A stretch of DNA of 35,250 nt, taken from positions 1 through 35,250 of the IMG/VR virus record IMGVR_UViG_3300035698_000231. One strand, 5' to 3'. The DNA comes from a virus. Under the pieces are notes generated by a model that was given only the letters and a program-made list of their open reading frames with translations, was not told where the DNA came from and ran no database searches. Shown in pieces: positions 8,615 through 33,570 of the stretch (position 1 is the first letter of the stretch; each line of letters starts with the position of its first letter). A program made the translations under genes and the position numbers.

Positions 8615-10417
8615 ATGGCACGTTTCGGCGATTTTGACCAATACCTAGACAACGCTGGCGAACCTTTAGTAGAGGGTAAGCTTTACTTTTACGAGTCCGG
8701 CACTACGACTCTTAAGACGACTTTTGCGGATATCAACAACTCTATCCCGAACACTAATCCCGTTCTACTGTCTGCCGCTGGTCGCCAGCCAAACATCTTT
8801 TTTGACGGCGTGGCAAAGTGCATCCTTGCCGATAATGCCGACGTGCAGATTGCGGTCCGAGATCCTGTAGGCGCGACGGAGTCAGCCTTTGGCGACCAGT
8901 GGGTAGCCACTAAGATCTATTCAGCGACAGACGTGGTTCTGGGCTCTGATGGAACATTCTACCGCTCGCTTATTAACGGCAATCAGGGAAACAACCCGGT
9001 CAGCACAACTGGCGATTGGACCCTGCTTTATTCGGTTGAGTGGAATACAGGCATTACATACGACATTGGCGCGGTGGTTACATATGATAACCAGCAGTAC
9101 CAATCGCTACAGGTAAGCAATACGTCTCACCAGCCAGATACTTCTACAACTTGGTGGGTTCCGCTCAACTTCGCTTGGGTGGCAACTGCGACTTACGCAG
9201 AGGATCAGAACGTCGTCGGTACGGACGGCATCCTTTATACCTCTCTGCAAGCAGCCAACATTGGCAATGACCCTGCAACGTCGCCTGCTTACTGGGTGGG
9301 TACAAGTGCAGCGGCAGCGGCCAGTGCAACAGCAGCAGCGGCATCTGCCACAGCAGCAGCAGCAAGCGAGACAGCGGCAGAGACAGCCGAGACTAATGCA
9401 GCAGCCAGTGAGACGGCAGCAGCAGCCTCTGAGACAGCAGCGGCGGCTAGTGAGAGTGCGGCAGCTACAAGCGAGACTAATGCAGCAAGCTCTGCATCGG
9501 CGGCTGCTACCTCAGAAACCAATGCAGCGTCTTCAGAGAGTGCTGCGGCAACATCTGAAACGAATGCAGCGGCGAGTGAGTCTGCTGCGGCTACCAGTGA
9601 AACTAATGCGGCAACAAGCGAGTCTGCGGCGGGGACTTCTGAAACGAACGCGGCATCAAGCGCATCTGCTGCATCAACATCCGAGACTAATGCGGCATCA
9701 TCCGAAAGTGCGGCGGCTACCAGTGCAACCAACGCGGCTACATCCGAGACTAATGCGGGAACTAGCGAGACTAATGCTGCAACGAGCGCATCGGATGCGT
9801 CTACCTCTGCCTCGGCAGCTTCTGGTTCAGCATCAGCAGCAGCTACCTCAGCGTCAGACGCAGCCTCAACTTATGACGACTTCGATGATCGGTACTTAGG
9901 CGACAAAGCCTCTGACCCTACGCTAGACAATGACGGCAACGCGCTCCTGACAGGCGCTTTGTACTTCAACACTACGTCAGATCAAATGAAGGTTTACACA
10001 GGGTCTTCGTGGGCAGCAGTAGCCCCTACAGCAACCTCTGTAACAGTAAGTCAGATCAGCGACTACACAGGCACGGCGGCAGAGCTTAACTACACAGATG
10101 GTGTGACAAGCGCCATCCAGCCTCAGATAGACTCTAAAGATGACTATCCAATACAGAAGGGCGTGAACTACACGGCCGTATCTGGAGATAACATTGTAGT
10201 CACAGCGGGCAGTATTACTATCACACTCCCAGCCTCTCCAAGCGCAGGTGACACTGTGGGCATTAAAGACGGCACAGGCGCAGCGGCCACCACTACATTC
10301 ACGGTAGCGCGTAACGGTTCTACCATCGCAAGCTCTGCTACTGACCTGATCTTTGACAAGAACTTCGCTGAAATTACTATGATGTACATAGACGGCACTA
10401 TCGGTTGGAGCGTGTAA
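8615..10417 (+). CDS. Tail fibre with lambda Stf-like Ala/Ser/Thr repeat shaft
   Basis: A 600-residue protein with clear modules. Residues 1-110 are a virion-attachment-like domain (YLDNAGEPLVEGKLYFYESG). Residues 110-228 hold two WW-ended units (Y..GAVVTYDNQQYQSL...TTWW and the following copy) resembling carbohydrate-binding ChtBD3-type modules. Residues 230-420 are an Ala/Ser/Thr/Glu repeat (AATSETNAASSESA-type) like the shaft of lambda side-tail fibres. Then comes YDDFDDRYLGDKASDPTLDN, a segment typical of phage fibre C-terminal domains, and a beta-rich tip. It sits between the ejection genes and three propeller-like genes. Its role is probably to attach the receptor-binding apparatus to the tail. 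Confidence 0.85.
   Translation: MARFGDFDQYLDNAGEPLVEGKLYFYESGTTTLKTTFADINNSIPNTNPVLLSAAGRQPNIFFDGVAKCILADNADVQIAVRDPVGATESAFGDQWVATKIYSATDVVLGSDGTFYRSLINGNQGNNPVSTTGDWTLLYSVEWNTGITYDIGAVVTYDNQQYQSLQVSNTSHQPDTSTTWWVPLNFAWVATATYAEDQNVVGTDGILYTSLQAANIGNDPATSPAYWVGTSAAAAASATAAAASATAAAASETAAETAETNAAASETAAAASETAAAASESAAATSETNAASSASAAATSETNAASSESAAATSETNAAASESAAATSETNAATSESAAGTSETNAASSASAASTSETNAASSESAAATSATNAATSETNAGTSETNAATSASDASTSASAASGSASAAATSASDAASTYDDFDDRYLGDKASDPTLDNDGNALLTGALYFNTTSDQMKVYTGSSWAAVAPTATSVTVSQISDYTGTAAELNYTDGVTSAIQPQIDSKDDYPIQKGVNYTAVSGDNIVVTAGSITITLPASPSAGDTVGIKDGTGAAATTTFTVARNGSTIASSATDLIFDKNFAEITMMYIDGTIGWSV
9301..9870 (+). repeat. Degenerate repeat coding the fibre shaft
   Basis: The DNA repeats around GCAGC(A/T)ACAAGCGAGACTAATGC-like units of roughly 42 bases, coding AA-S/T-S-E-T-N-A-A patterns. 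The skewed composition creates long open frames on both strands that are not genes. Confidence 0.85.
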
Positions 10418-11866
10418 ATGAGCAATCTGTCAGAGTTACTACCCTCTGGCGGCGGCCAGAATGCGGTTGATTTTGTTGCGTCTGGGACTCTAGGTAACGG
10501 TCAGGTCGTAGCCTTGAAGACTGATGGCACGGTTGAAGCTGTTGCAGACACGGTTATTCCCGATAGCGCGGCTACTCCCGTTGCGTTTGGGACCAGCACT
10601 TCAGACTACAGCGTGACGTATGACTCTGCTGCTCAAAAAACGGTTATTTCCTATAGAGACGGTGGAAACAGCAACTATGGAACAACAGTAGTGGGAACAG
10701 TTTCAGGCTCAACTATCACGTTTGGGACACCCGTAGTGTTTTATAGCGCACTAACAAGAAATATAGGTAATACTTTTGATGTTGCTGCTGGAAAAATAGT
10801 AGTTGGTTATCGAGGCCCGTCTAACTATGGGTATGGAATTGTAGGAACGGTAAGCGGAACTTCTATATCGTTTGGTTCTCCGGTAGGTTTTAGCGCAAAC
10901 AGGGTGATAACTTATAGCACTAGACTTGTATACGAGCCAGTCGCCCAAAAGATTGTCCTAGTGTATACGGATCAAGGTAACGCGAACTATGGCTCCTATG
11001 TAGTTGGTACAGTTAGTGGCACAGCTATATCTTTCGGAGGGGTGGGTTCTTATAACAACGGCGATACTCAGGGAACATACATTGTTTACGACTCAGTAAG
11101 CGGTAATGTAGTTGTTGCCTATACAAATGGAGCGAGCGGAAGTTACGGGACGGCAAGGGTGGGGACGGTAAGCGGCACTTCAATAACTTGGGGAACCGCT
11201 GTTGCGTATGCGTCTATAAGTCAGCAGTCTTTCACGCTCGCTTATGACTCTACCGCCAAAAAAGTAGCAGTTTCTTACCATTACTATAGCGGGAGCAGTA
11301 AAAGTGAGGCAATAGTAGGAACTGTCAGCGGCACTTCAATTTCGTTCGGCGCAGTTTTTGATCTTGGCTCTGCAAATATAGACTATAATTCCACTTACGA
11401 CCCTGTGGCCAATAAAATTGTGTTAGTCGCTAGGGATTACAACACTACAAATTACGGGGTTGTAAAGCTCGGCACTATAAGCGGAACCTCTATCTCGTTT
11501 GGCGCGAAAATAACCTTTAGCAACAACGTGACCACCTCTGGAGCAATTGGTTGTTTCTACGATCCAGATGCAGGAAAAACCATCATCGCGTACACAGCAG
11601 GAGGTAGCGGCCTTTCTGTTGTTTGGACTACAGGACACACAGCAACAAACAATACCGACTTCATAGGCATCACCGCCGCAGCCATAGCTAACGGCGCTAC
11701 AGGCCCAGTAAATGTATACGGCGGGATTAACGAAGCGCAGACAGGTTTGACCATAGGCTCTGACTACTACGTCCAAGCAAACGGCTCGTTATCTACCACA
11801 GCCTCAAGCGTTAAGGTAGGCCAAGCAATCTCCGCAACCACGATCAACATGATGGATTTGACATGA
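10418..11866 (+). CDS. Predicted seven-bladed beta-propeller tail protein, paralogue 1
   Basis: The 482-residue protein has a conserved N-terminal cap (MSNLSELLPSGGG...FVASGTLGNG...DGTVEAVA), then seven repeats of 50-53 residues (about 65-400), and a C-terminal domain (DFIGITAAAIANGATG...DYYVQANGSLST) known in style from aquatic phage fibres. Each repeat reads roughly YDxxxxKxVIxYxDxGNxxYGxxxVGTVSGTSISFGxPVxF. The last repeat lacks the VGTVSG strand while the N terminus supplies an extra PVAFGTSTSDYS strand, as in Velcro ring closure. It starts directly after the fibre stop. This is the most divergent of the three copies. A host-receptor-binding role is inferred. Confidence 0.7.
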   Translation: MSNLSELLPSGGGQNAVDFVASGTLGNGQVVALKTDGTVEAVADTVIPDSAATPVAFGTSTSDYSVTYDSAAQKTVISYRDGGNSNYGTTVVGTVSGSTITFGTPVVFYSALTRNIGNTFDVAAGKIVVGYRGPSNYGYGIVGTVSGTSISFGSPVGFSANRVITYSTRLVYEPVAQKIVLVYTDQGNANYGSYVVGTVSGTAISFGGVGSYNNGDTQGTYIVYDSVSGNVVVAYTNGASGSYGTARVGTVSGTSITWGTAVAYASISQQSFTLAYDSTAKKVAVSYHYYSGSSKSEAIVGTVSGTSISFGAVFDLGSANIDYNSTYDPVANKIVLVARDYNTTNYGVVKLGTISGTSISFGAKITFSNNVTTSGAIGCFYDPDAGKTIIAYTAGGSGLSVVWTTGHTATNNTDFIGITAAAIANGATGPVNVYGGINEAQTGLTIGSDYYVQANGSLSTTASSVKVGQAISATTINMMDLT

Positions 11867-13317
11867 GTAATCTGACAGATTTATTGCCTGCGGGTGCGGG
11901 TGGCAAGCAAGTAGACTTCGTAGCGTCTGGGACTATAGGCAACGGTGTGACTGTCGGGCTTAACTCGGATGGGACTGTGACGGCGGTTGCGGAAACTAGT
12001 TTATCGGAAGCAATAGGGTCGCCTGTAATTTATGAAAGCATTAGAGTTGAAAATATATCAGCAACATTTGATTCAACAAACGGCAAAGTAGTTATTGCTT
12101 ACAGATTTATAGGAAACGCATACGGAGCAGCAGTTGTTGGGACGGTCAGCGGAACTAGTATCAGCTTTGGCACTCCTGTAGTTTTTGAAAGTGCTAACAG
12201 CAATCAGATTTCCGCAACATTTGATTCAACAAACGGCAAGGTAGTAATAGCTTATAGAGATGACGGTAACTCACAATACGGAACTGCGATTGTAGGCACT
12301 GTAAGTGGAACTAGTATATCTTTTGGCACTCCTGTAGTTTTTGAAACCGCAGAGTCTCGCTGCAACTCAGCAACATTTGATTCTAATTCAAACAAAATAG
12401 TTATAGCCTATCGAGATGGTGGTAACTCTAATTACGGAACAGCTATCGTAGGCACAGTATCCGGAACAAGCATCAGTTTTGGAAGTCCATCAATTTTTGA
12501 AACTGCTACATCTGATTATATATCAGCAACATTTGATTCTAATTCAAATAAAGTAGTTATAGCGTACCAAGACGCAGGCAACTCTACACGCGGTACATCT
12601 GTGGTTGCTACTGTTAGCGGCACTAGTATAAGTTTTGGAAGCCCTGTTGTGTTTGAAACCGGATCGACTTATTTTATTTCGGCAACATTTGATTCTAATT
12701 CAAATAAAACTGCTATAGCTTATGCTGATGCCAGTAACAGCTACTATGGAACTGCGGTTGTAGGCACTGTAAGTGGAACTAGTATATCTTTTGGCACTCC
12801 TGTCGTGTTTGAAAGTGCTAGAGCTAATTACAACGCAGCCACATTTGACTCTAATGCAAATAAAATAGTCATTGCTTATCAAGACGCAGGCAACTCTAAC
12901 TATGGAACACTTGTTGCCGGAACAATTAGCGGCACTAGTATTAGTTTTGGAAGTCCATCAATTTTTGAAAGTGCTGATTCCGCTTGGGTTTACGCAACAT
13001 TTGATTCTAATTCAAATAAAGTAGTTATACCTTATGAAGACGTTGGAAACTCACAATACGGGACAGCAGTAGTGTTTCAGAACGCTTCTGTAAATAACAA
13101 CTCCGCCGACTTCATAGGCATCTCAGACGCTGCCATCTCGGACACTGCATCTGGCTCGGTGACAATCAAAGGCGGCATCTCTACCAACGTCACAGGACTC
13201 ACGGCTAACCAGAATTACTACGTCCAAGATGACGGCACACTGTCTACCACATCCTCAGACGTACTAGCAGGCAAAGCCCTGTCCTCCACTAGCATTAACT
13301 TGGATTACACAACATGA
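11863..13317 (+). CDS. Predicted seven-bladed beta-propeller tail protein, paralogue 2
   Basis: At 484 residues it has the same architecture as its neighbours: N cap, seven repeats, C-terminal FIGISDAAISDTASG domain ending in LDYTT. It has the most regular repeats. The marker beginning CAACATTTGA recurs at 12062, 12215, 12371, 12527, 12683, 12839 (first bases CCACATTTGA) and 12995, giving one 153-base and five 156-base steps. The repeat region looks more AT-rich than the coding ends, suggesting recent repeat amplification or import. It is joined to both neighbours by 4-base ATGA overlaps, so the three are probably made together. No enzymatic motif is visible. Confidence 0.7.
   Translation: MSNLTDLLPAGAGGKQVDFVASGTIGNGVTVGLNSDGTVTAVAETSLSEAIGSPVIYESIRVENISATFDSTNGKVVIAYRFIGNAYGAAVVGTVSGTSISFGTPVVFESANSNQISATFDSTNGKVVIAYRDDGNSQYGTAIVGTVSGTSISFGTPVVFETAESRCNSATFDSNSNKIVIAYRDGGNSNYGTAIVGTVSGTSISFGSPSIFETATSDYISATFDSNSNKVVIAYQDAGNSTRGTSVVATVSGTSISFGSPVVFETGSTYFISATFDSNSNKTAIAYADASNSYYGTAVVGTVSGTSISFGTPVVFESARANYNAATFDSNANKIVIAYQDAGNSNYGTLVAGTISGTSISFGSPSIFESADSAWVYATFDSNSNKVVIPYEDVGNSQYGTAVVFQNASVNNNSADFIGISDAAISDTASGSVTIKGGISTNVTGLTANQNYYVQDDGTLSTTSSDVLAGKALSSTSINLDYTT
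12062..13150 (+). repeat. Seven 156-base repeats inside propeller paralogue 2
   Basis: Seven near-identical units code about 52 residues each, the first one codon shorter and the last losing its final strand. The nucleotide similarity between units is high enough to allow homologous exchange within the gene and with the flanking paralogues. The right boundary is approximate. Confidence 0.88.
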
Positions 13318-14762
13318 GCAATTTGAGCGAGTTACTACCTGCCGGAGCAGGAGCCAAGAGTGCAACCTTCGTGGCTAGTGGCACGTTAGGTAGTGGGGTT
13401 ACTGTCGGGCTTAACTCGGATGGGACGGTTGAGGCTGTTGCGGAGACAGCAATTCCGGAAACTGTAGGCTCTGAGTCTGTTTATGAAGCAGGTAATGCCG
13501 CACCAAACTCTGTCGCTTTCGATTCTAGTAATAATAAAATAGTTATTGCTTATCGAGACGGCAGCAATGGCGGCTATGGAACATCGGTTGTGGGGACAGT
13601 ATCTGGCATTTCAATTAGTTTCGGCACTCCTGTAATTTTTAATAGTGTTAGCTCTGATTACACAAGAGTAGTATTTGACTCTAACGCAAGCAAAGTGGTT
13701 ATTGCATACCGAGGAGCTGTGGGTAGAGGCAAAGCTATAGTCGGAACAGTGTCCGGAACATCAATTAGTTTTGGTACAGAAGAGCAATTTGAATCGGGGT
13801 CTACTGAAAACGTCGATATTGCCTTTAATACCTCAGCCAATAAAATTGTAATATCTTACGCAGATGCCGGTAACTCTGAATACGGCAAAGCCGTAGTTGG
13901 CACTGTTTCAGGAACATCAATATCTTTTGGTACAATTGCAAACTTTAACAACGCAGTAACACAAGAAACTAGAATAGCTTATGATTCAAATGCAGATAAA
14001 GTAGTTATAGTCTACAAAAACCAAGGTAATTTTAGTCGTGGAACAGCAATTGTAGGAACGGTAAGCGGTACAGATATTTCTTTTGGGACGCCTGTTGTTT
14101 ACCTTTCGGCAACAGTCCAAGGTATGTCTATTACGTACGAATCAAACGCTCAAAAAGTAGTAATAGCTTATAGCGATGGAACTAGTGGTAATTATTACGG
14201 AAGAGCAATAGTCGGCACTGTTTCAGGAACATCTATATCTTTTGGGACGCAAGCAACTATTCAAAGCGCTGTTACAAACCGAACTTCTATAGCCTTTGAT
14301 GCAAATGTAAACAAAGTGGTTGTTTCTTATGTAGAAGGCAGTCCGACGTATGCGGGTTCCTCAAGAGTAGGCACTGTTTCCGGAACCTCTATATCTTTTG
14401 GATCGGAATTATCTTTTAACCCTGCAACAACAGACAATATAGCAAGCACTTTTGATTCTAACTCCAACAAAATAATTATTGTTTATAGAGACGGCGATAA
14501 TTCTAACTACGGCACATCGGTAGTGTTTCAAAACGCTTCTACTTCAACCAACGTCACCTCCTTCATAGGCATAACAGACCAAGCCATAGCCGATACAGCT
14601 ACAGGCGCAGCGATTGTGCAGGGTGGGGTTAGTGATAAGGTTACAGGTTTAACTACTGGCTCTGACTATTACGTCCAAGATGACGGCTCATTATCAACAA
14701 CAGTATCTTCCGCCCCCGCAGGACGGGCTTTATCAACAACCTCAATCCTATTGGAAGGATAA
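13314..14762 (+). CDS. Predicted seven-bladed beta-propeller tail protein, paralogue 3
   Basis: The third 482-residue member has an N cap MSNLSELLPAGAG, seven repeats beginning near residue 65 (VAFDSSNNKIVIAYRDGSN...), and the shared C-terminal domain (FIGITDQAIADTATG...DYYVQDDGSLST) ending ILLEG. The cap shares a 26-base exact block with paralogue 2 (11950-11975 versus 13401-13426), evidence of shared ancestry or gene conversion. Repeats are more diverged than in paralogue 2, especially in the loops between the KVVIAY strand and VGTVSG, where receptor contacts would be expected. It probably acts at the tail tip with its sisters. Confidence 0.7.
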   Translation: MSNLSELLPAGAGAKSATFVASGTLGSGVTVGLNSDGTVEAVAETAIPETVGSESVYEAGNAAPNSVAFDSSNNKIVIAYRDGSNGGYGTSVVGTVSGISISFGTPVIFNSVSSDYTRVVFDSNASKVVIAYRGAVGRGKAIVGTVSGTSISFGTEEQFESGSTENVDIAFNTSANKIVISYADAGNSEYGKAVVGTVSGTSISFGTIANFNNAVTQETRIAYDSNADKVVIVYKNQGNFSRGTAIVGTVSGTDISFGTPVVYLSATVQGMSITYESNAQKVVIAYSDGTSGNYYGRAIVGTVSGTSISFGTQATIQSAVTNRTSIAFDANVNKVVVSYVEGSPTYAGSSRVGTVSGTSISFGSELSFNPATTDNIASTFDSNSNKIIIVYRDGDNSNYGTSVVFQNASTSTNVTSFIGITDQAIADTATGAAIVQGGVSDKVTGLTTGSDYYVQDDGSLSTTVSSAPAGRALSTTSILLEG

Positions 14763-14764
14763 TT

Positions 14765-15022
14765 ATGAAAACTATAGTATGCGAAATGAACTGCTCTAAG
14801 TACCTCTTTGCTGACGACAAGCAAGTCAACGTAAAAGACGACTGCATCGAAGTGGGCGACCCTGCTAACTTGGATTTCATCATTGGCGACCTTAACGCTA
14901 GCAACTCTACATTGATTGAAGGCGTTACTACTCCGGACGATTGGTACGGCTGCAAGTACAACTACGTCAATGACGCATGGGAACTTTGCCCTGATTGGAC
15001 TGACCCACGTTTGGAGCCATAA
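14765..15022 (+). CDS. Small conserved protein downstream of tail genes
   Basis: An 85-residue acidic protein, starting two bases after the third propeller gene's stop. It contains DFIIGDLNASNSTL and ends with PDDWYGCKYNYVNDAWEL...WTDP, a Trp-rich ending I recognise from small proteins encoded after tail fibres in aquatic phages. The position is where many phages encode fibre assembly chaperones, but I see no specific chaperone motif. The stop shares one base with the next ATG. Confidence 0.6.
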   Translation: MKTIVCEMNCSKYLFADDKQVNVKDDCIEVGDPANLDFIIGDLNASNSTLIEGVTTPDDWYGCKYNYVNDAWELCPDWTDPRLEP

Positions 15023-16209
15023 TGAGCCTAATAGACTACGCCAAGACAGGCAGACAACGCGAAGCAATAAAAGCGTGGCAAGACTGCGGAGAAGTGGTTG
15101 CTAAAGCGGCGGGTGTCTTGGGTGTTTCTCCGTCTACAGTACGCGACCATATTGGGGCGGTTAAAAACGCTGCGGCTGCGGCTGGCTATAGTGAGAATTT
15201 CGATGCTAGGCGGCTGGTTCCTGAAGGTGAGGTAGTTATTGGTCGCAGTATCTATACCACCACAGACGACAACGAGAAAATCTGGCTAAAGACCAAGAGG
15301 ACAATGACCGAGGCAGAGCGAGACAAATCTCTGCAAGGTTTTGTTGACGGTCTTACTAAAGGGGTTAAACCTTACAAGCCGAAAGACAAGCCCAAGTCAA
15401 AAAAGTTTGCCACCGACCTTTTGCCGACCATCGTAATTGGCGATGCGCATTTTGGGATGCGGGCCGATGCGAGAGAAACAAAGTCTCGCGACTACGATAC
15501 CAAGATAGCTTCGCAAGATATGTTGGCTGCGATAGATTCATTGGTTTCTTTAGCACCTCCTTCTGAGAAATGCTTGTTGGTGAACGTGGGTGATTTTATC
15601 CATGCTAATGGGTCAAGTGGGACCACGTTTGCTGGCACAAAACTCGACGTGGATACCAGAATCGAGGTAGTGCTTGAGATAGCCGCTCAGACTTTCTTGT
15701 TTGCGATAGATAAAATCCTATCCAAGCATAAGAGCTGCGTTGTGGTAATGGCTAGAGGTAATCACGATTCTGATACTGCCATCGCCCTCGCGCTGATCTT
15801 GAAGTTCTATTACTCCAAAGAGCCAAGGGTCACTATTTTAGACCCTCACGGATTCTTTCATACTCTGACCTTCGGACAGAACCTCATAGCGGTTCACCAT
15901 GGCGACAAAGTGAAGGCAGCCAAGCTAGGGGCTATCCTCCCTAAAATGCTACCCGAGCAGTGGGCAGCCACTAACTACCGCAAATGGCTTGTCGGACATA
16001 TCCATCATCAGAACGCTATTGAGGTGGATAATGGATGCAAAATCGAAGCCTTCGGGACCTTGTCTCCACCCGATTCTTGGCACGCAGGGGCCGGCTATGG
16101 CGCGGCTAGTGTGATGAATCAGATTGTATTTCACAAAGATGGCGGCGAAGCTATCCGTCACGTTTATCAAATCAGAGACTCGCGCAAAGTCCCTGACCTG
16201 ACGCTATAG
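15022..16209 (+). CDS. HTH-metallophosphoesterase fusion (calcineurin-like)
   Basis: In this 395-residue protein, residues 15-45 form a helix-turn-helix (AAGVLGVSPSTVRDHI) like those of terminase-small or transposase N termini. Residues 135-335 carry the full metallophosphoesterase motif set: GDAHFG (D141, H143), GDFIH (D191), GNHD (N247, H248), HHGD (H292/H293) and GHIHH. All metal ligands are present, so it should be active as a phosphodiesterase or nuclease; Mre11/SbcD-like nucleases use this fold, but the substrate is not shown. It lies between tail and lysis genes. A DNA-directed nuclease, guided by the HTH, is the simplest reading. Confidence 0.8.
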   Translation: MSLIDYAKTGRQREAIKAWQDCGEVVAKAAGVLGVSPSTVRDHIGAVKNAAAAAGYSENFDARRLVPEGEVVIGRSIYTTTDDNEKIWLKTKRTMTEAERDKSLQGFVDGLTKGVKPYKPKDKPKSKKFATDLLPTIVIGDAHFGMRADARETKSRDYDTKIASQDMLAAIDSLVSLAPPSEKCLLVNVGDFIHANGSSGTTFAGTKLDVDTRIEVVLEIAAQTFLFAIDKILSKHKSCVVVMARGNHDSDTAIALALILKFYYSKEPRVTILDPHGFFHTLTFGQNLIAVHHGDKVKAAKLGAILPKMLPEQWAATNYRKWLVGHIHHQNAIEVDNGCKIEAFGTLSPPDSWHAGAGYGAASVMNQIVFHKDGGEAIRHVYQIRDSRKVPDLTL

Positions 16210-16211
16210 GT

Positions 16212-16469
16212 ATGAAGATGGAAGACCGATTACACCGAGTAGAAGCTAAAATCGACAAACTTCAGGAGGCTGTCATTTCTCTAGCCCGCGTTGAAGAGCA
16301 GTTAGTCACGGTGTTTAATCGCCAGTCTTCAATTGAGTCTAAGGTCAACGGCCTTGATGACAAGGTGGACCGCATGGTCGAGAGCCTTGCTAACGCCAGA
16401 TCTGTTGAAAGAGTGGTATGGATTTTTATCGCTGCGGCCATCGGGGCAACAGTAAAACTCATGGGGTAG
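16212..16469 (+). CDS. Coiled coil with C-terminal membrane anchor (XhlA-like)
   Basis: Of 85 residues, 1-62 form heptad-rich coiled coil (RVEAKIDKLQEAV..., SSIESKVNGLDDKVDRM) and the last 17 are hydrophobic (VVWIFIAAAIGATVKLM). This is the shape of haemolysin XhlA-type lysis accessory proteins. It is the first of the lysis-region genes. A second ATG at 16218 is an equally good start. A membrane-associated lysis role is inferred. Confidence 0.6.
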   Translation: MKMEDRLHRVEAKIDKLQEAVISLARVEEQLVTVFNRQSSIESKVNGLDDKVDRMVESLANARSVERVVWIFIAAAIGATVKLMG

Positions 16470-16472
16470 CAA

Positions 16473-16658
16473 ATGGACGCAATACCGTTTCCGGATACGC
16501 GCAGCGACCGCTTAACAGAGGAAGCCTTAGACAAGCTCGGTGAGTGGGTTGAGCACTACATTGAGCTAGGCGTCAATCAAATCACTATTATCGGGCTGCT
16601 GGATATTTACAAAACCTCTCTCTCATTTAATTTACTGGAAGACGAAGAAGATGATTAA
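16473..16658 (+). CDS. Small acidic hypothetical protein in lysis region
   Basis: A 61-residue protein, helical, with an acidic C terminus (LLEDEEDD) and no membrane segment. It starts 3 bases after the previous stop and overlaps the holin-like gene by 8 bases. I do not recognise it; tight packing and clean start support it as real. Confidence 0.5.
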   Translation: MDAIPFPDTRSDRLTEEALDKLGEWVEHYIELGVNQITIIGLLDIYKTSLSFNLLEDEEDD

Positions 16659-16905
16659 GAAGGCAAAGGCGGCGTTTACGCTATTACAGAAAGGCAAGTC
16701 AGTATCAGACCCAGCCAAGTGGAAAAGCCGTCAGATCACCGCTACGGCGCTCACAGGGGTATTCTGGGCGGCTATACAGGCAGCAGAGGCGTTTGGCTAT
16801 GCAATACCAGTGGATGAGACGACTGTTGATTCTGTCGCTGTTGGGGTTCTTGCTCTCGTCAACTGGGTGCTCACACTATCAACATCTGAGAAGGTCGGGA
16901 TGTAA
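16651..16905 (+). CDS. Holin-like small membrane protein
   Basis: An 84-residue protein with a basic N terminus (KKAKAAF...KWKSRQ), one hydrophobic segment at about 29-47 (ATALTGVFWAAIQAAEAFG) and a second at about 60-77 (VDSVAVGVLALVNWVLTL). Two segments, small size and a location two genes before the lysozyme fit a phage holin, which makes inner-membrane holes at a set time. The topology is predicted only. Confidence 0.6.
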   Translation: MIKKAKAAFTLLQKGKSVSDPAKWKSRQITATALTGVFWAAIQAAEAFGYAIPVDETTVDSVAVGVLALVNWVLTLSTSEKVGM

Positions 16906-17008
16906 TTTGGGAGTAAAGCCTGTTATAGTCAACCCGCACTGGGTACACGTTGTGCCTAATTTGTATGGCGTAGAAGCCATTTTGCTGACTATGGAGTGTA
17001 AGGTATGA
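16814..17008 (+). CDS. Candidate embedded lipoprotein (o-spanin-like), out of frame with the holin-like gene
   Basis: A 64-residue frame begins inside the holin-like gene in another frame: MRRLLILSLLGFLLSSTGC, a lipoprotein-type signal with two Arg, a hydrophobic core and a Cys preceded by SSTG; the next residue Ser would favour the outer membrane. It then spans the otherwise empty 16906-17004 gap and ends in a 4-base ATGA overlap with the next gene. Embedded lipoproteins of this kind are Rz1 o-spanins in lambda. Against it: no clear ribosome site, position -3 is Ser rather than Leu, and no proline-rich mature region. A TG-T-TATAGT extended -10 at 16921-16929 could instead explain the gap. 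Confidence 0.38.
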   Translation: MRRLLILSLLGFLLSSTGCSHYQHLRRSGCNLGVKPVIVNPHWVHVVPNLYGVEAILLTMECKV

Positions 17009-17268
17009 ACATATTTACTTATTTAAGCTGGGTCAAAAAGCTCTGGACGACCGTTGTAGAGATCGTAAAGCTGATTGAAGAAACCATCCCTGATGATGGG
17101 GCCGGCAAGGAGAAACTTGCTGCGTTTGATTTGATGTTAAAAGCCGCGCTGGAAAAGGCAGACGACATTGATGAGAGCTTCGATAAGCTTCAACCAGTAG
17201 CGCACGATATTGTGGGCGCAGTCGTTACTCTCTTTAACGCGACAGGTTTGTTTAAGCGAGCAGAGTAA
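17005..17268 (+). CDS. Small helical protein before lysozyme
   Basis: An 87-residue protein. The N terminus is amphipathic (IFTYLSWVKKLWTTVVEIVKLI), the middle charged (KLAAFDLMLKAALEKADDIDES) and the C terminus again hydrophobic (IVGAVVTLFNATGLF). Its stop overlaps the lysozyme ATG (TAATG). It may act at the membrane in lysis (an antiholin or inner-membrane spanin partner is possible), but there is no diagnostic motif. Confidence 0.55.
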   Translation: MNIFTYLSWVKKLWTTVVEIVKLIEETIPDDGAGKEKLAAFDLMLKAALEKADDIDESFDKLQPVAHDIVGAVVTLFNATGLFKRAE

Positions 17269-17684
17269 TGGATAGGCTACAACGTCTGTTGATCAGGCAT
17301 GAATCTCTCAGGAATAAGCCTTACGAGGATACTGCTGGGAATCTAACTATTGGGGTCGGGAGAAATCTTGATTCACTTGGCTTGTCTCGTGACGAGTGCT
17401 TATATCTGCTTGATAACGATATAGCTCGCTGCGACCGAGAGCTCAGACACAACTTTAAGTGGTACTTAGAGCTCTGTAGGGTCCGGCAGGACGCTATGAT
17501 AAACCTTTGCTTTAATCTGGGTATCACTCGCCTGCTTACCTTCAAAAAGGCTCTGGCCGCGATGGCTGAGGGTGACTTCAGTAAGTCGGCCGACGAGTTC
17601 CTTGATTCTAAGTGGGCAACTCAAGTCGGGCCCACGCGCAGCAGTGATATAGACTGCATGGTGCGGACCGGAAGATACCCGTAA
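17268..17684 (+). CDS. T4-type lysozyme (GH24 endolysin)
   Basis: A 138-residue muramidase. The catalytic triad pattern of T4 lysozyme (E11, D20, T26) is seen as E12, D21 and T27 in RHESLRNKPYEDTAGNLTIGVGR. Further conserved points are the LCFNLG segment and the C-terminal WATQVG..R motif. It has no signal peptide or SAR anchor, so it needs a holin for access to peptidoglycan. It is the last gene of the late-gene run before a hairpin. The call is secure. Confidence 0.93.
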   Translation: MDRLQRLLIRHESLRNKPYEDTAGNLTIGVGRNLDSLGLSRDECLYLLDNDIARCDRELRHNFKWYLELCRVRQDAMINLCFNLGITRLLTFKKALAAMAEGDFSKSADEFLDSKWATQVGPTRSSDIDCMVRTGRYP

Positions 17685-17724
17685 AAAAAAGACCCCTAAC
17701 CGGCGGGAGAACCAGTTAGGGGTC
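17683..17724 (-). terminator. Strong hairpin with U-tract on the minus strand
   Basis: GACCCCTAAC (17691-17700) and GTTAGGGGTC (17715-17724) form a perfect 10-bp stem. The A run at 17684-17690 gives a U-tract only for minus-strand transcription; on + the stem is followed by no T run. It is therefore a minus-strand terminator or a hairpin that protects the 3' end of the lysozyme mRNA. Confidence 0.75.
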
Positions 17725-17800
17725 TGCGGTGGTAGCTGACGGAGATAACCACTCGACAGAGTATATCCGATATTTCTTTTCTTGATGTCATCCATTTTGC

Positions 17801-17829
17801 TTGACAGCAGATACGCATCTCTTTACCAT
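17801..17829 (+). promoter_or_regulatory. Early promoter: TTGACA-N17-TACCAT
   Basis: A perfect -35 (17801-17806), a 17-base spacer and a 4/6 match -10 (17824-17829) lie 32 bases before the ERF gene, which has a GACGGAG ribosome site. This is the likely promoter of the recombination operon 17862-21542. A GATGTCATC palindrome lies just upstream. Confidence 0.65.
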
Positions 17830-17861
17830 CGTCTACGTTATTAACTGACGGAGTAAAGAAA

Positions 17862-18494
17862 ATGACACAACGTACTATCTTCAAAGCGCTCAGCGCTGTC
17901 CAGTCTGATCTATCCAAGGTCGGAATCGCTAAAAATCAAAAGAACAGCCACCAAGGCTACAAGTTCCGTGGTATCGACGACGTGCTTAACACGCTGGCGC
18001 CGATCATTGCTGAGCATGGCGTTCTGATTATCCCTAACGTCCTAAGCAAAGACATCAAGACAACGGCCACCAAGAATGGCGGTGTAGCGTCTCACGTTAT
18101 CCTAGAGGTAGGTTTTGTACTGTATGACAGCGAGGGAGATTCGATCTGTCACACTGCCTACGGTGAAGCTCTGGATACCAGCGACAAGGCAGTAAATAAG
18201 GCCATGACTGCCGCTTATAAATACTTCTTGTTCCAAGCCTTTTGTATTCCTATTGACGGCGTTGAAGACGCTGACAGCGAGCAGATTCAGCAGGTGGCCT
18301 CACAGCCAGCATTGGTAACAGCTGACACCCTTGCTCAGATTATTTCTCTGTGCGAAGAGCTTGGCGAAGACGTTCAGCGCTACACTGCATGGGCTAAAGC
18401 TTCTGAAACAAAGCTAATCCCTCAGGATAAAGCGGTGCGCATTGTCGCTAATCTTATCTCAAAGAAAGAGGCCAAAAATGAAGGGCAGCCATAA
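17862..18494 (+). CDS. erf: ERF-family single-strand annealing protein
   Basis: A 210-residue protein with the ERF signature: FRGIDDVLNTLAPIIAEHGV (residues 32-51), then GEALDTSDKAVNKAMTAAYK followed by YFLFQAFCIP. ERF of P22 binds single-stranded DNA and anneals complementary strands, needed to circularise or concatenate phage DNA. It is paired here with a lambda-exonuclease-type nuclease two genes on, as in Red-like systems. The C-terminal part is variable and charged. It is the first gene after the early promoter. The family call is confident. Confidence 0.9.
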   Translation: MTQRTIFKALSAVQSDLSKVGIAKNQKNSHQGYKFRGIDDVLNTLAPIIAEHGVLIIPNVLSKDIKTTATKNGGVASHVILEVGFVLYDSEGDSICHTAYGEALDTSDKAVNKAMTAAYKYFLFQAFCIPIDGVEDADSEQIQQVASQPALVTADTLAQIISLCEELGEDVQRYTAWAKASETKLIPQDKAVRIVANLISKKEAKNEGQP

Positions 18495-18618
18495 CGCTTG
18501 TGAGGTATGCAAACAGCAGGGGTCGCGCAGTCAAAGCGTCTGCTCGCCCTGCTTAGACTTTTTTAACTACGCACTAGCTTTATGGATAAAGGGAGCTCCA
18601 AATGCCACGAATAATTGA
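18478..18618 (+). CDS. Small double-CxxC zinc-ribbon-like protein
   Basis: A 46-residue frame overlaps the ends of both neighbours (16 bases of ERF, 17 of the exonuclease gene) and fills the gap between them. It has two CxxC pairs (C8-x2-C11 and C22-x2-C25), enough for one zinc site, followed by a hydrophobic helix (FFNYALALWI). The ATG has only a weak GAAAGAGG site upstream. Overlaps on both sides and the paired cysteines suggest a real gene that length cut-offs would miss. Confidence 0.6.
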   Translation: MKGSHNACEVCKQQGSRSQSVCSPCLDFFNYALALWIKGAPNATNN

Positions 18619-19201
18619 TTGTATTCAAGGTAGCGACGATTGGCTTGCGCAGCGCTGCGGAGTCATTACAGCTAGTAACTTCAGCAAGGTATTCACAGGC
18701 GCCGGTAAGGCGTCTACGCAAGCTGACGCGCTTATCAATACTCTTGTAGCGGAACGCATTACCGGCAAGCCAACAGAAACTTTTAAGTCGGACGCCATGC
18801 AGCGAGGCAACGATCTGGAGCCGGAAGCTAGGGATATGTTCGAGCTAGAAACCGGCTTGTCAGCGGAGCTTGTCGGTTTGATCAAGATGGATGATTACGA
18901 GATAGGTTGCTCGCCCGATGCTGTCATAGGAGACGACTCCGGCTTAGAAATCAAGTGTCCTTCTGCGTCAACCATGATAGCATACAAAAGATCAGGCAAG
19001 CTCCCATCGGCATACGTCCAGCAGGTCCACGGTTGTATGCTAGTTACTGGGCGATCTAACTGGTGGTTCTACGCTTACCATCCTGATATGAAGCCTTTTA
19101 TCTTGAACGTCAAGCGGGACGATAAACTGCTGGCCGCAGCGGAAGAGCTGCTAAAAGAAACTGCAATTAAAATTAATGAACTGACGGAGACGTTAAAATG
19201 A
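18602..19201 (+). CDS. Lambda-exonuclease/YqaJ-type recombinase nuclease
   Basis: A 199-residue protein with the YqaJ motifs: QGSDDWLAQR (9-18), ITASNF, RGNDLEPEA (68-76), GCSPDAV with catalytic D106, GLEIKCPS with E116 and K118, and YVQQVHG (138-144). The family degrades the 5' strand of double-stranded ends to give 3' tails for an annealing protein, here the ERF protein just upstream. The length is close to lambda Exo (226). All catalytic residues are present. Confidence 0.92.
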   Translation: MPRIIDCIQGSDDWLAQRCGVITASNFSKVFTGAGKASTQADALINTLVAERITGKPTETFKSDAMQRGNDLEPEARDMFELETGLSAELVGLIKMDDYEIGCSPDAVIGDDSGLEIKCPSASTMIAYKRSGKLPSAYVQQVHGCMLVTGRSNWWFYAYHPDMKPFILNVKRDDKLLAAAEELLKETAIKINELTETLK

Positions 19202-19506
19202 GTAATTACACCACTATATTTGAATACGCACTATGGAAGGACAACGAGCGCAAGAACGACCGAGCTCCTCACACTACGGGCAGCGGAAGCTTTACCTGCC
19301 CTAAGTGCCAGTTCCATATTCCTAAGATCAGGACCAGCGCTTACACGAATAAGCCTGACCCAGCAGCGCCTAATCGCCCGCTAATCAAAGGCGAAGCAAG
19401 CATAGGATCTGACAAGCTGGCAGAGCTCTTAAACGGCCCGAGCACGGTCCCTGTCCCAGCGGTAGAGTCACCTATTGATGACTTTGACGACGACTTACCG
19501 TTCTAA
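19198..19506 (+). CDS. Small CxxC protein with SSB-like acidic C-terminal tip
   Basis: A 102-residue protein starting in an ATGA overlap with the exonuclease gene. The N-terminal part (FEYALWKDNERKNDRAPHTTG) resembles small phage proteins of the LFKNDRKEK...YTGS type, followed by one CPKC pair. The middle is Pro-rich and disordered. It ends DDFDDDLPF, the same form as the C-terminal tip of bacterial single-strand binding proteins, which recruits repair and replication enzymes. No OB fold is visible. It may dock on host SSB partners or deliver them to recombination sites; this is inference. Confidence 0.6.
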   Translation: MSNYTTIFEYALWKDNERKNDRAPHTTGSGSFTCPKCQFHIPKIRTSAYTNKPDPAAPNRPLIKGEASIGSDKLAELLNGPSTVPVPAVESPIDDFDDDLPF

Positions 19507-19515
19507 GGAGCAATC

Positions 19516-19725
19516 ATGGATTTTGGTAAAGCTTTAATAGCGGCCCAAGATCTCAAGGGTGTTCGGTCAGCACAACTGGCCGAGCAACTTGGAGTCAGCA
19601 GGCAGCAGATACACAAATGGCGCACTAAGAAAGACGCGCGGTTGTCACTGGTTGTTAAGTTCTCAAAAGAACTTGATATTGACGTAATGGAATTCTTGGA
19701 GCTTGCCAATGCCAGCAATAGCTAA
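19516..19725 (+). CDS. Cro/C1-type helix-turn-helix regulator
   Basis: A 69-residue protein. Residues 18-37 (SAQLAEQLGVSRQQIHKWRT) form a canonical XRE-family helix-turn-helix. It has no dimerisation or cleavage domain beyond about 20 residues, as in Cro-size repressors. It has a good AAGGAG site. It may act on the dyads seen at 21984-22006 or 23345-23371, but this is untested. With no integrase or CI present, a lytic timing role is likelier than lysogeny. Confidence 0.8.
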   Translation: MDFGKALIAAQDLKGVRSAQLAEQLGVSRQQIHKWRTKKDARLSLVVKFSKELDIDVMEFLELANASNS

Positions 19726-19963
19726 ATTCACTCAAGCTATTGCGGCTATTGAAGATGCTGCATGGCGGGCCTCACAGTATCAAGAGCCCTACGCAGTTAT
19801 AGAGCTCGAGGGCGATTTTGGCGTTTGCTCGTTTGACGACTTAGAGCCCTACGATAATATCTTGGAAATATGCACTCCGACCAAGACCAAAAGCAAATTA
19901 ACGGTGGAAAATGAACAATTTCAAGCGCCCGAGGCAGTACGCCGCAGAGATTATGATGATTAA
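19709..19963 (+). CDS. Small acidic hypothetical protein
   Basis: An 84-residue protein. I chose the ATG at 19709 over an upstream TTG. It starts inside the HTH gene's end and overlaps the following small gene by 53 bases. It contains AAWRASQYQEPYAVIELEGDFGVCSFDDLE and is otherwise featureless. The function is unknown. Confidence 0.5.
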   Translation: MPAIAKFTQAIAAIEDAAWRASQYQEPYAVIELEGDFGVCSFDDLEPYDNILEICTPTKTKSKLTVENEQFQAPEAVRRRDYDD

Positions 19964-20081
19964 GGAAAGGGAGGAGCGCCGCGAGGCGCTTAATAAAGTG
20001 CCCGAGGACCTTCGGGACTGGGTAAAAAAATTGGTGGTGAACGCTTATGAAATTCGAGCAGCTAGAAGAAACAGCGCGTAA
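19911..20081 (+). CDS. Small basic helical protein (conserved phage type)
   Basis: A 56-residue protein overlapping both neighbours. It reads RPRQYAAEIM then EREERREALNKVPEDLRDWV, followed by a basic tail. This RxYAxxIM...REERRxALxxVPxxLRxWV pattern is one I recognise from many short proteins in Pseudomonas and other proteobacterial phages. It has a GGTGGAAA site. Function is unknown, but the pattern makes it very likely real. Confidence 0.72.
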   Translation: MNNFKRPRQYAAEIMMIKEREERREALNKVPEDLRDWVKKLVVNAYEIRAARRNSA

Positions 20082-20364
20082 GTACGCGGAGGCTGAAGCT
20101 AGTCGGCAGTACCTGATGGAGTTTAGAAAGTCTAAGAAAGCTTTGCTCATGGGCGAGGCTGAGCGTGAGAATCCTAAAATGCCTATTGCGGCTCAGGAGC
20201 GTTACGCTTACTCTCATCATGAGTACCTAGAGTTACTTGATGGGCTCAAGGTTGCAATAGAACAGGCCGTCGGGCTCAAGCACCAGCTTGCAGTCTGGCA
20301 GATGAAGTTTGAGACATGGCGCACTCAGGAATCAACCAAGCGCGCGGAGATGAATATCAGATGA
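20047..20364 (+). CDS. Conserved helical early phage protein
   Basis: A 105-residue protein with EFRKSKKALLMGEAE and MPIAAQERYAYSH then a YLELLDGL helix and a final helix with VWQMKFETWR. This is a well-conserved phage protein type of unknown role often found beside recombination genes. It overlaps the upstream small gene and ends in an ATGA overlap with the next. Confidence 0.7.
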   Translation: MKFEQLEETARKYAEAEASRQYLMEFRKSKKALLMGEAERENPKMPIAAQERYAYSHHEYLELLDGLKVAIEQAVGLKHQLAVWQMKFETWRTQESTKRAEMNIR

Positions 20365-20549
20365 TAAATGAGAAAGGTGATTATATTCCGCCGGCGGATG
20401 TTGAAAGGCTGTCTAAGGGATTCTCTGTAATGAGTCAGAAATTCTCACTGGCTTTGTTAAAGTCGCGCTCGTCCAAGATGGACCACGAAACCTTTGACCG
20501 GTGCATTAGAACCATGGCGGCCCTAAAGGGCAAAAGTTATTTCCGATGA
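20361..20549 (+). CDS. Small hypothetical protein
   Basis: A 62-residue protein. I chose the ATG at 20361, which forms an ATGA overlap with the previous stop, over an in-frame ATG at 20316. It contains PPADVERLSKGFSVMSQKF and a basic C terminus. No recognised domain. Confidence 0.5.
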   Translation: MINEKGDYIPPADVERLSKGFSVMSQKFSLALLKSRSSKMDHETFDRCIRTMAALKGKSYFR

Positions 20550-21121
20550 AGACAAGACGCTGCAAACTATGCCGCACCAAGATGCCTGAAGATCAGGTAA
20601 TCATGGGCGGCATTTATTCGTTTTGCTCTTGGGATCATCTGCACGAGTACACCACGACAGATCAAGCAAAAAAAACTGCCAAATTGTCGTATGCTCGTGA
20701 GGCGAAAGCTGTTAAGGAATCCCTGAAGACTGCCTCAGATTACGTCAAAGAGGCTCAGACTGCCTTTAACGCATATATCAGAATGAGGGACCGCAACAAG
20801 CCCTGTATTAGCTGCGGGGCCGCTCAGGGCGATACCGTGCAGGGCGGCAAGTTTGACGCAGGGCATTACCGCTCTCGAGGCTCAGCTGGGCACCTTAGAT
20901 ATCATGTGTTGAATTGCCATAGCCAGTGCGTCAAATGCAACCGATATCTCTCAGGCAACGTCGTAGAGTACCGCAAGGGCCTGATCAATAGGGTCGGATC
21001 CGACAGAGTTTGCCAGCTGGAAAATGATAATTCACAGCTGAAATTTACCATTGAGTACCTGAAGCGGGTAAAAAAGATCTTTAATTACCGGAAACGGTTA
21101 TACGAAAGGAAGTTCAGATGA
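20546..21121 (+). CDS. ninG: NinG/Rap-like recombination nuclease
   Basis: A 191-residue protein of NinG length. It has an N-terminal zinc-binding CKLC (C6, C9) with FCSWDHLHEY, a basic coiled-coil middle, and the NinG core PCISCGA, GKFDAGHYRSRGS, LNCHSQCVKCNRYLSGN and YRKGLI. Lambda NinG (Rap) cuts Holliday junctions and D-loops during Red recombination, which fits the ERF/exonuclease neighbours. It is joined by ATGA overlaps on both sides. Confidence 0.9.
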   Translation: MKTRRCKLCRTKMPEDQVIMGGIYSFCSWDHLHEYTTTDQAKKTAKLSYAREAKAVKESLKTASDYVKEAQTAFNAYIRMRDRNKPCISCGAAQGDTVQGGKFDAGHYRSRGSAGHLRYHVLNCHSQCVKCNRYLSGNVVEYRKGLINRVGSDRVCQLENDNSQLKFTIEYLKRVKKIFNYRKRLYERKFR

Positions 21122-26809: not shown

Positions 26810-27181
26810 ATGAGCTCAGAAGGTCGTCCGCCTAGGGTGTTCTCACCAGCAGAAATTGAAGAGTGCCAGCGCTTGGCCGCGTCAATAACCAAGCGCCAAC
26901 TCGCAGATTATTTTGGTTGTAGTTTCAATACCTTGCAGGCTGCTATGAAAAGGCAGCCTGAATTTAATGAAGCTTACAGGAAGGGAAAGGCCATGGCGAT
27001 CATTCAGATGGCCGGATCATTGCAGATGAAGGGGCTGGACGGTGACGTGGGAGCTGCTAAGTTCTGGCTGTCTCACCAAGCCGGATGGTCTGAGACCAAG
27101 CGCACCGAGCTCTCTGGTCCTAACGGCGACCCCATTGAGATGGACGTTGACATGAAATGGACTATCGAGGTGGTTGAATGA
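26810..27181 (+). CDS. Terminase small subunit
   Basis: A 123-residue protein. The N-terminal HTH (ASITKRQLADYFGCSFNTLQAAMK, split as two helices) would bind the pac site; the middle helix and GAAKFWLSHQAGWSETKR are typical of phage small terminases, where AAKFWL..R.GW is common. The C terminus is a short beta tail. It is immediately upstream of TerL with one small gene between. Confidence 0.83.
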   Translation: MSSEGRPPRVFSPAEIEECQRLAASITKRQLADYFGCSFNTLQAAMKRQPEFNEAYRKGKAMAIIQMAGSLQMKGLDGDVGAAKFWLSHQAGWSETKRTELSGPNGDPIEMDVDMKWTIEVVE

Positions 27182-27369
27182 GCACGGGCCCATGGGAAGG
27201 CGGCAAGGGCTCTCGGCTCCGCAAGTACAACGTGAAAAAGTATCTGGACAACTACAACAAGATATTCGGCAACGCTAAAGAGCCCGAAGCCAATGAAGAG
27301 CTTGGCAATAAATTTCTTGAGTCCGTAAAAGAAATGAAAGCTGAGATCTCTAAGAAGCGCCAAGACTAA
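27178..27369 (+). CDS. Small basic protein between TerS and TerL
   Basis: A 63-residue protein, starting in an ATGA overlap with TerS and ending in TAATG with TerL. It is basic at the N terminus (GGKGSRLRKYNVKKYLDNY) and helical at the C terminus. No known domain. Tight coupling suggests a packaging or DNA-binding accessory. Confidence 0.55.
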   Translation: MSTGPWEGGKGSRLRKYNVKKYLDNYNKIFGNAKEPEANEELGNKFLESVKEMKAEISKKRQD

Positions 27370-28775
27370 TGCCTAAGATGCAGATTCCCAAGAAGCTTCA
27401 GCCTTTCCTCAAGCCTAAGCGCATAAAGGTCGCGCTGGGTGGTAGGGGAAGTGGCAAGAGCATGAGCATCGCTGACTTGTGCCTGATGGACGCAATGACC
27501 AAGGGAATCAAGACGCTTTGCTTTCGTGAGTTCCAGAACAGCATAGACGACTCGGTGCTTAGTATTCTGCGCGCTGAGATAGATCGCCTTAACCTTGCAG
27601 GCTTTGAGGTCCAGAAGTCTCAAATCCTGTATGACGACGAGCCAGCGTTCCGCTTCAAGGGCATGGCCCGTGACCCAGAGGCCATTAAAAGTGCGCATGG
27701 GTTTCAGCGGTTCTGGGTGGAGGAAGCTCAGACAATCTCCTTTGACTCACTCAAGGCCCTAACGCCTACACTCCGCGAGGAGGGCTCAGAGCTCTGGTTC
27801 TCGGCTAACCCTCGGTCATCACTGGACGCATTCAGCCAGCGCTTCATCAAGCCGTTTGAGAAGGAGCTACTGCGCGACGGGTTCTATGAGGACGAAGACC
27901 ATCTGATCATCATGATCAACATTGAGGATAATGCTCTAGCGCCTGACGTTCTAAAGCGTGAGATGGAGGGAGACAGGGATAGGATGAGCCCTGCCCTCTT
28001 TGACCATGTGTGGCGAGGCCATTTCCTAGATGACGTTGAGGACAGCATCATCCCAGCAGAGTGGTTTGATGCAGCGATAGATGCTCACGTTAAGCTAGGC
28101 TTTGAAGGAACCGGCGCAATCATCGCCTCACACGATCCCTCAGACGAAGGAGGGGACAGCAAGGGCTTTGCTCTACGCAAGGGGTCAGTAGTCCTAGACA
28201 TCTGCGAGAAGGTCACAGGCGACGTTGCAGAGGGTATGGACTGGGCTCTACGCAAGGCCCGCGAGTGTCAGGCCGATTGGTTTGTCTGGGACTGTGACGG
28301 CATGGGCATAGCGCTCAAGCGTCAGGTAGATGCCGAGCTCGAGTCTACTGCAATGCAGAAGCACCAGTTCAGAGGCTCAGAGTCACCTGATGACGCAATG
28401 ATCCCTTACAGCGGCTCAGACTCTAAGACCAACCGCGACACGTTCCTGAATAAGCGCGCGCAGTACTGGTGGAAGCTCAGGGACCGCTTCGAGGCGACCT
28501 ACCGCGCAGTCACAAAGGGTGAGTACATAGACCCCGAGAATCTGATCTCTCTGTCGTCTGAGATCCCCGTATTACAGCAGCTCAGGTCCGAGGTGTGTCG
28601 TATACCACAAAAAAGGTCAAACAATGGTAAAATCGCCATAATGACCAAGATAGACATGGCGAAGAAATATCAATTGCCCTCACCTAACATGGGCGACGCA
28701 CTAATGATGGCGATGTTTTCGCCGAAGCAGATCGCCAAGCAGGCGGTCAAAATCAATTTTCAGGGCTGGGGCTAG
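27369..28775 (+). CDS. Terminase large subunit (packaging ATPase/nuclease)
   Basis: A 468-residue protein. The ATPase half has Walker A GGRGSGKS (24-31), Walker B FWVEEAQ (115-121, catalytic Glu) and a coupling motif FSANPRS. The nuclease half has acidic residues in SHDPSDEGGD and VWDCDGMG. The protein pumps DNA through the portal and cuts concatemers. With no cos-like features seen, headful packaging as in P22 is likely. Confidence 0.93.
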   Translation: MPKMQIPKKLQPFLKPKRIKVALGGRGSGKSMSIADLCLMDAMTKGIKTLCFREFQNSIDDSVLSILRAEIDRLNLAGFEVQKSQILYDDEPAFRFKGMARDPEAIKSAHGFQRFWVEEAQTISFDSLKALTPTLREEGSELWFSANPRSSLDAFSQRFIKPFEKELLRDGFYEDEDHLIIMINIEDNALAPDVLKREMEGDRDRMSPALFDHVWRGHFLDDVEDSIIPAEWFDAAIDAHVKLGFEGTGAIIASHDPSDEGGDSKGFALRKGSVVLDICEKVTGDVAEGMDWALRKARECQADWFVWDCDGMGIALKRQVDAELESTAMQKHQFRGSESPDDAMIPYSGSDSKTNRDTFLNKRAQYWWKLRDRFEATYRAVTKGEYIDPENLISLSSEIPVLQQLRSEVCRIPQKRSNNGKIAIMTKIDMAKKYQLPSPNMGDALMMAMFSPKQIAKQAVKINFQGWG

Positions 28776-28778
28776 ACT

Positions 28779-32442: not shown

Positions 32443-32612
32443 TCGGCTCCTGTTAGAATCCTGATCTTTCCTTCGAGCTCTTCTTCGAGCTCTTTGGATC
32501 GCTCAAACTCACCGTAAGCGTGACAGCTCAATATCTCCCCCACCATTGCCATCAAATCATCTGAGATCTGATCGGGATCGTCTGTCTCAAATACTTCGAA
32601 TAAATCACTCAT
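32439..32612 (-). CDS. Minus-strand 57-residue acidic protein (moron candidate)
   Basis: A complete frame on the minus strand begins with ATG at 32612-32610 and ends with TAG, tail-to-tail with the toxin-like gene. The product (MSDLFEVFETDDPDQ start; helix KELEEELEGKIRIL) is acidic and helical with phage-like codon choice. GGTGAT lies upstream as a ribosome site. A minus-strand TAAAAT could be its -10. It is the only protein gene I would place on this strand. Function is unknown; it may be an antidote or regulator for the toxin-like gene. Confidence 0.58.
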   Translation of the reverse strand: MSDLFEVFETDDPDQISDDLMAMVGEILSCHAYGEFERSKELEEELEGKIRILTGAD

Positions 32613-32724
32613 AAATCACCGTTGGTCAAATTGACTAGATTTTGTTGATTTTAACCTGTTTATGCTATAATCACCAACAGGCCACCAGACCTTCATCTGG
32701 GCATTTACCTTTAAGGGGCACAAC
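32613..32724. other. Divergent intergenic region upstream of scaffold
   Basis: About 110 bases between the minus-strand gene and scaffold. It has a perfect GTCAA-A-TTGAC palindrome just left of the promoter, which itself is flanked by an inverted repeat. It can drive transcription both ways. Confidence 0.55.
32645..32681 (+). promoter_or_regulatory. Promoter with extended -10 (TGCTATAAT) and flanking inverted repeat
   Basis: TTGATT (32645-32650), a short 15-base spacer, and TG-C-TATAAT (32663-32671). CCTGTT (32655-32660) and AACAGG (32676-32681) flank the -10 as an inverted repeat, the same arrangement as in the two early cassettes. It probably boosts scaffold and coat expression. Confidence 0.66.
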
Positions 32725-33555: not shown

Positions 33556-33570
33556 GAAAGGTAATAGATC

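Follow-up and report, generated by a model that had tools for sequence, protein, structure and literature searches.

Directly behind the tail fibre gene of IMGVR_UViG_3300035698_000231, an uncultured marine virus of bacteria, lie three tandem genes of almost equal length, which raises the question of what their products are and in which way they could cooperate with the fibre. The window, i.e. the whole stretch of DNA that was analysed (positions 1-35250; 35,250 bases), has head and tail genes of the P22-like podovirus kind and looks like a nearly complete genome in permuted form. Head-tail adaptor and head closure genes are located at 54-2812 and those for terminase, portal, scaffold and coat at 26810-34833, the coat (major head) protein sharing 56% identity with its counterpart in Pseudoalteromonas phage H6/1. 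Past the module of interest, positions 15022-21121 hold genes for a DNA repair exonuclease, an endolysin-like protein, an Erf-like annealing protein, an exonuclease and a NinG/Rap endonuclease. When bacterial genomes were scanned for relatives, four weak or distant matches turned up, in MAGs, and no host was found. The features of the module are given below; E-values of locally run searches relate to very small sequence sets, and L-numbers in the following text are labels of relatives' contigs.

8615-10417, + strand: tail fibre gene, 600 aa (PHROGs tail fibre protein, 1.2e-59)
10175-10414, + strand: fibre tip domain, about 80 aa, likely docking site, kept in 49 non-redundant modules
10418-11866, + strand: P1, slot-1 scaffold with a predicted seven-bladed propeller in loop 1, 482 aa
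10418-10549, + strand: N half of the P1 scaffold (matches PF09956 when spliced to the C half, E 4.4e-4)
11630-11863, + strand: C half of the P1 scaffold (unspliced PF09956 match at 11654-11839, E 5.4e-5)
11863-13317, + strand: P2, slot-2 scaffold with a predicted seven-bladed propeller, 484 aa (AlphaFold2 pLDDT 94.5, fold matches)
12001-13077, + strand: P2 propeller, residues ~47-405 (Z 32.8 to YncE)
13314-14762, + strand: P3, slot-3 scaffold with a predicted seven-bladed propeller, 482 aa
14765-15022, + strand: 85-aa module gene, conserved beside the scaffold genes, related to the N part of ICBM2 gp48

The preliminary description had proposed three adjacent, coupled paralogues with seven repeats of about 52 residues each, and these points were borne out. 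The three ORFs (482, 484 and 482 aa) follow immediately on the fibre ORF on the + strand, their 4-base overlaps read ATGA, and a repeat profile search gives exactly seven repeats in each of P1, P2 and P3. Self-identity at the repeat lag amounts to 70, 190 and 101 matches, respectively, versus shuffled maxima of 46-48 (500 shuffles each), and the paralogy is supported; the other two proteins share 57% and 48% identity with P2. Searches of Pfam and PHROGs with the whole proteins gave spurious weak matches only, and phmmer of the proteins against the PDB gave no match.

An AlphaFold2 model was made for the middle protein, P2, from 85 relatives (mean pLDDT 94.5, pTM 0.85). Its residues 47-410 match solved seven-bladed propellers with Z-scores of 32.8 for YncE and 29-31 for the Photorhabdus PLL lectins, and WD40 rings with Z about 29. 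The seven-bladed propeller postulated from the repeats is thus supported by structure prediction, the ring being closed in the P2 model. The predicted strands also agree with the four-stranded blades derived from the seven repeats. The last repeat lacks the D-strand segment, and in the model the N-terminal strand (about 44-58) is positioned to supply it, which supports the suggested ring closure by the N-terminus. By homology to P2, the proteins P1 and P3 would be seven-bladed propellers as well. Complete proteins among 80 relatives and their tandem paralogues cluster at seven or 13-14 repeats, as would be expected of closed rings and not of an open solenoid. Within the blade, the variable sites are the D-A and B-C loops (entropy of the D-A loop about 3.3 bits), whereas the C-D turn is nearly invariant (about 0.8 bits). 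The D-A and B-C loops of propellers sit on one face, and the combination of these variable loops with the near-invariant C-D turn fits a candidate binding face.

In one respect the earlier picture has to be revised, namely that the N cap and the C-terminal domain are not separate units. They are two halves of a single small domain with a capsid-cement fold, formed by both termini of the protein, and the propeller sits in loop 1 of this domain. When the N-terminal ~44 and the C-terminal ~80 residues are joined, they match Pfam PF09956 (Phage_cement_2); with E<0.1 this is the case for 13 of 20 spliced scaffolds (best 4.1e-5), and 7 of 12 propeller-free scaffolds match the family, too. For P1, the spliced scaffold reaches 21.0 bits and the C half alone, unspliced, 18.8 bits. 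None of the scaffolds in the window reaches the curated cut-off of 24 bits (best 21.0), so that the relationship is one of fold and weak sequence kinship and not of family membership. The whole-protein searches mentioned above gave spurious matches, and the scaffold becomes visible only with its halves joined or through an empty relative. The AlphaFold2 model of such an empty-scaffold relative (pLDDT 83.6) matches the capsid cement or decoration proteins of HFTV1 (Z 11.9), Pam3 (9.9), XM1 (9.9) and TW1 (8.1), and also the base of the phi29 head fibre (Z 7.5) and lambda gpD (Z 5.7). By homology to this modelled relative, the scaffolds of the window are predicted to have the cement/decoration fold.

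Such empty scaffolds of 115-124 aa occur naturally and fill slots of three-gene arrays in relatives (484/119/472 aa in L092, 500/120/510 in L098, 115/488/494 in L105 and 115/505/496 in L111). Among 274 non-redundant scaffold genes, 220 carry an insert in loop 1 only, 32 in both loops and 12 in neither; an insert in loop 2 only was found in 0 of the 274, and 10 could not be placed. The inserts have a median length of 378 aa. Some loop-2 inserts are without the propeller repeat (L017, L026, L045, L166). Propeller-sized inserts that the repeat profile missed are present in L054 (8799-10427), L107 (3225-4781) and L132 (1702-3222), and may represent further types of propeller or binding fold occupying that slot. 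A further protein, encoded at 3882-10934 of L086, comprises 2350 aa with 22 repeats and several scaffold halves; its contig is binned as Euryarchaeota and is probably viral all the same.

The proposed link to the tail fibre is supported by gene context, including the chaperone-like neighbouring gene, and by fusions to fibre shafts in relatives. The 600-aa fibre combines a podovirus-tailspike-like N-terminus, whose first 180 aa share 40% identity with the tailspike of Pseudoalteromonas phage H6/1, with an Ala-rich coiled shaft and a conserved C-terminal tip. In the 49 non-redundant modules, the gene immediately preceding the module keeps this tip domain and the rest of the fibre varies, and the tip is, as judged from this conservation, the likely docking site. 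The module then continues with 1-3 scaffold genes and a gene of 85-95 aa. The product of the latter, for which comparison of the 85-aa protein with solved structures gave no match, could possibly be part of a fibre-assembly chaperone or a terminal cap. In an alternative lineage, a 120/124-aa protein is found upstream, and the 85-95 aa gene often lies between the first and the second scaffold gene; the 120/124-aa protein (841-1215 in L022, and its relatives) belongs to no recognised family and stands in place of the fibre tip. As one would expect of tail-fibre adhesins, the scaffold genes are encoded with, or fused to, a tail fibre: L025 and L051 encode scaffold and propeller as a fusion with a fibre shaft (PHROGs tail fibre, 2.5e-21 and 4.6e-33), and L117 has an empty scaffold behind an Mtd_N domain.

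Since counting copies by their repeats overlooked members whose insert is empty or divergent (L054, L015), the scaffold genes themselves were counted, in modules that were anchored at the small gene and delimited by the fibre tip. Three scaffold genes are present in 37 of 49 modules, two in nine and one in three. Many contigs are fragments, and tandem repeats are prone to misassembly; five of the two-gene modules (L097, L122, L136, L151, L164), however, have a common small gene of 94-95 aa and are therefore unlikely to be assembly errors alone. Of the idea that the three genes represent a set acting as a heteromeric system, the prevalence of three consequently stands, but three is not obligatory.

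For 81 of 84 scaffolds, but for only 23 of 84 propellers, the nearest neighbour in another virus occupies the same slot (chance about one third). On trees of the 84 proteins, nine slot-label changes are needed for the scaffold and 38 for the propeller, the slot labels on the propeller tree being no better than shuffled ones for slots 2 and 3. As the propeller tree is poorly resolved and tree counts alone are weak, the nearest-neighbour counts and nucleotide breakpoints were used in addition. The clearest breakpoints are found between the slot-2 gene of L034 and its counterpart in L040, which groups with slot 1: the two share about 80-100% nucleotide identity over codons ~21-420, but identity is only about 47% in codons 1-20 and 40% in codons 421-440. 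Similar, less sharp exchanges are seen between L062 slot 2 and L075 slot 1 and between L007 slot 2 and L009 slot 1. The ORFs of L019 and L152 that seem to be slot chimeras might be products of assembly collapse and are not counted as evidence by themselves. On these sequence comparisons, the scaffold is slot-locked and the propellers have been transferred between slots as nearly complete cassettes. Given this slot-independent exchange and the hypervariable loops on one face, the multi-receptor binding envisaged in the preliminary description appears plausible.

From our point of view, the reading that best accommodates these observations, and to which we would assign a probability of about 0.58, is that trimeric, propeller-bearing beads are stacked serially on the fibre tip and act as adhesins. 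P1, P2 and P3 would accordingly be beads that lengthen the tail fibre in the virion. Each scaffold would trimerise, by analogy with the beads of phage A-1(L) (see below), and the beads would stack in series on the tip in the gene order P1-P2-P3, so that as many as nine propellers, of three kinds, would point outward and could bind host surface glycans or proteins via the hypervariable loops on one of their faces. The propellers would represent plug-ins that may be missing, present a second time in loop 2, or recombined between slots and phages with assembly undisturbed. The scaffolds are probably specialised by slot because their neighbours differ (tip of the fibre, adjoining bead or chain end). 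A chain further allows for a variable length of one to three beads; in its simple form it does not account for the preference for three.

This preference can be turned into an argument for a different architecture, in which one copy each of P1, P2 and P3 would assemble into one cement-fold trimer (1:1:1) at the fibre tip, every arm bearing a different propeller. Three is the commonest gene number (37/49), there are three slot-specific scaffold lineages, and three slots are retained even if one of them is empty. Several contigs have two-gene modules, however, and single-gene modules exist too, a homotrimer would better suit the three-fold symmetric fibre tip, and the beads that serve as precedent in A-1(L) are homotrimeric. 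We hence regard a heterotrimer as rather doubtful, and its obligate form, which the triplets had suggested, was demoted by the complete two-gene modules, whose existence makes it unlikely. A broader version, namely an asymmetric slot-specific complex (up to 1:1:1) in which exchangeable propellers shuffled by recombination would give each virion combinatorial specificities, appears unlikely to about the same extent. Less probable still is that the scaffolds decorate the capsid and display their propellers there. Capsid proteins are otherwise the best-known examples of the scaffold fold, and the empty-scaffold model indeed matches mainly capsid decoration or cement proteins, the phi29 head-fibre base included; the genes, however, lie beside the fibre tip and the 85-aa gene, far from the head genes, scaffold plus propeller is fused to fibre shafts in relatives, and the same fold makes the fibre beads of A-1(L). 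On gene context, in particular, capsid display is less likely than a location on the fibre. Finally, the propellers could be imagined as enzymes, e.g. glycan hydrolases, and not as passive adhesins, since tailspikes often bear enzymes and sialidases are among the top Foldseek matches. The latter are mostly six-bladed, though, the Pfam search found no catalytic family, and the conserved residues recur in every blade, as structural ones would, which makes an enzymatic role the most improbable of these alternatives.

The serial-bead reading draws on a known fibre, in that the neck fibre of the Anabaena phage A-1(L) has been modelled as a chain of beads from gp82, gp81 and gp80 trimers (PMC10966104). 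In both cases consecutive genes build, or would build, a fibre, and the bead protein gp81 is related in sequence to the scaffold (hhalign to the scaffold profile: probability 96.4%, P 1.3e-9). In contrast to the present case, the A-1(L) structure is a neck and not a tail fibre, gp81 has no propeller, and PMC10966104 reports no slot-locked set of paralogues. The members of the Phage_cement_2 family (PF09956) and the TW1, Pam3, XM1, HFTV1 and phi29 gp8.5 base proteins have a like fold with weak sequence similarity, whereas the scaffolds of the window score below the family cut-off, hold a large propeller in a loop and are encoded among fibre genes instead of head genes.

As regards the propeller, the Photorhabdus PLL/PHL lectins are likewise seven-bladed (Z 29-31), but share only about 6-11% identity with P2, have no scaffold and are built from another repeat, so that the likeness is one of predicted fold. 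The receptor-binding protein of Staphylococcus phage phi11 reportedly contains a propeller within this host-recognition protein, and receptor-binding proteins of that type are not known to us to have nested insertions, empty slots or paralogues that are slot-locked. Among cultured phages, Lentibacter phage ICBM2 encodes a scaffold-propeller protein, gp49, followed by the chaperone gp48. Here the scaffold-propeller gene is single-copy (26% identity), and gp48, whose N part is like the 85-aa protein of the window, retains a C-terminal chaperone domain (Phage_tail_APC, PF16778, E 9.8e-19) that the 85-aa gene lacks. Adjacent to the scaffold-propeller gene, ICBM2 also encodes gp51 (L084, 3276-4487), which resembles a propeller (Lactonase, 7-bladed, E 3.6e-7) and is accompanied by a fibre-assembly gene of its own; repeats of similar appearance occupy loop 2 in L017 and L026.

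The search of open-licence full texts yielded no report of a propeller embedded in a cement fold. Overall, the present analysis divides a putative phage adhesin into an assembly part, the slot-locked scaffold, and a binding part, the mobile propeller, and suggests that a capsid-cement fold has been reused for the beads of a fibre. In many marine viral contigs, genes without an assignment in Pfam or PHROGs thereby gain testable names and a structure. Should several propellers be displayed jointly, a single phage could hold several specificities and renew them by cassette exchange, which, if true, would bear on how marine phages keep pace with their changing hosts.
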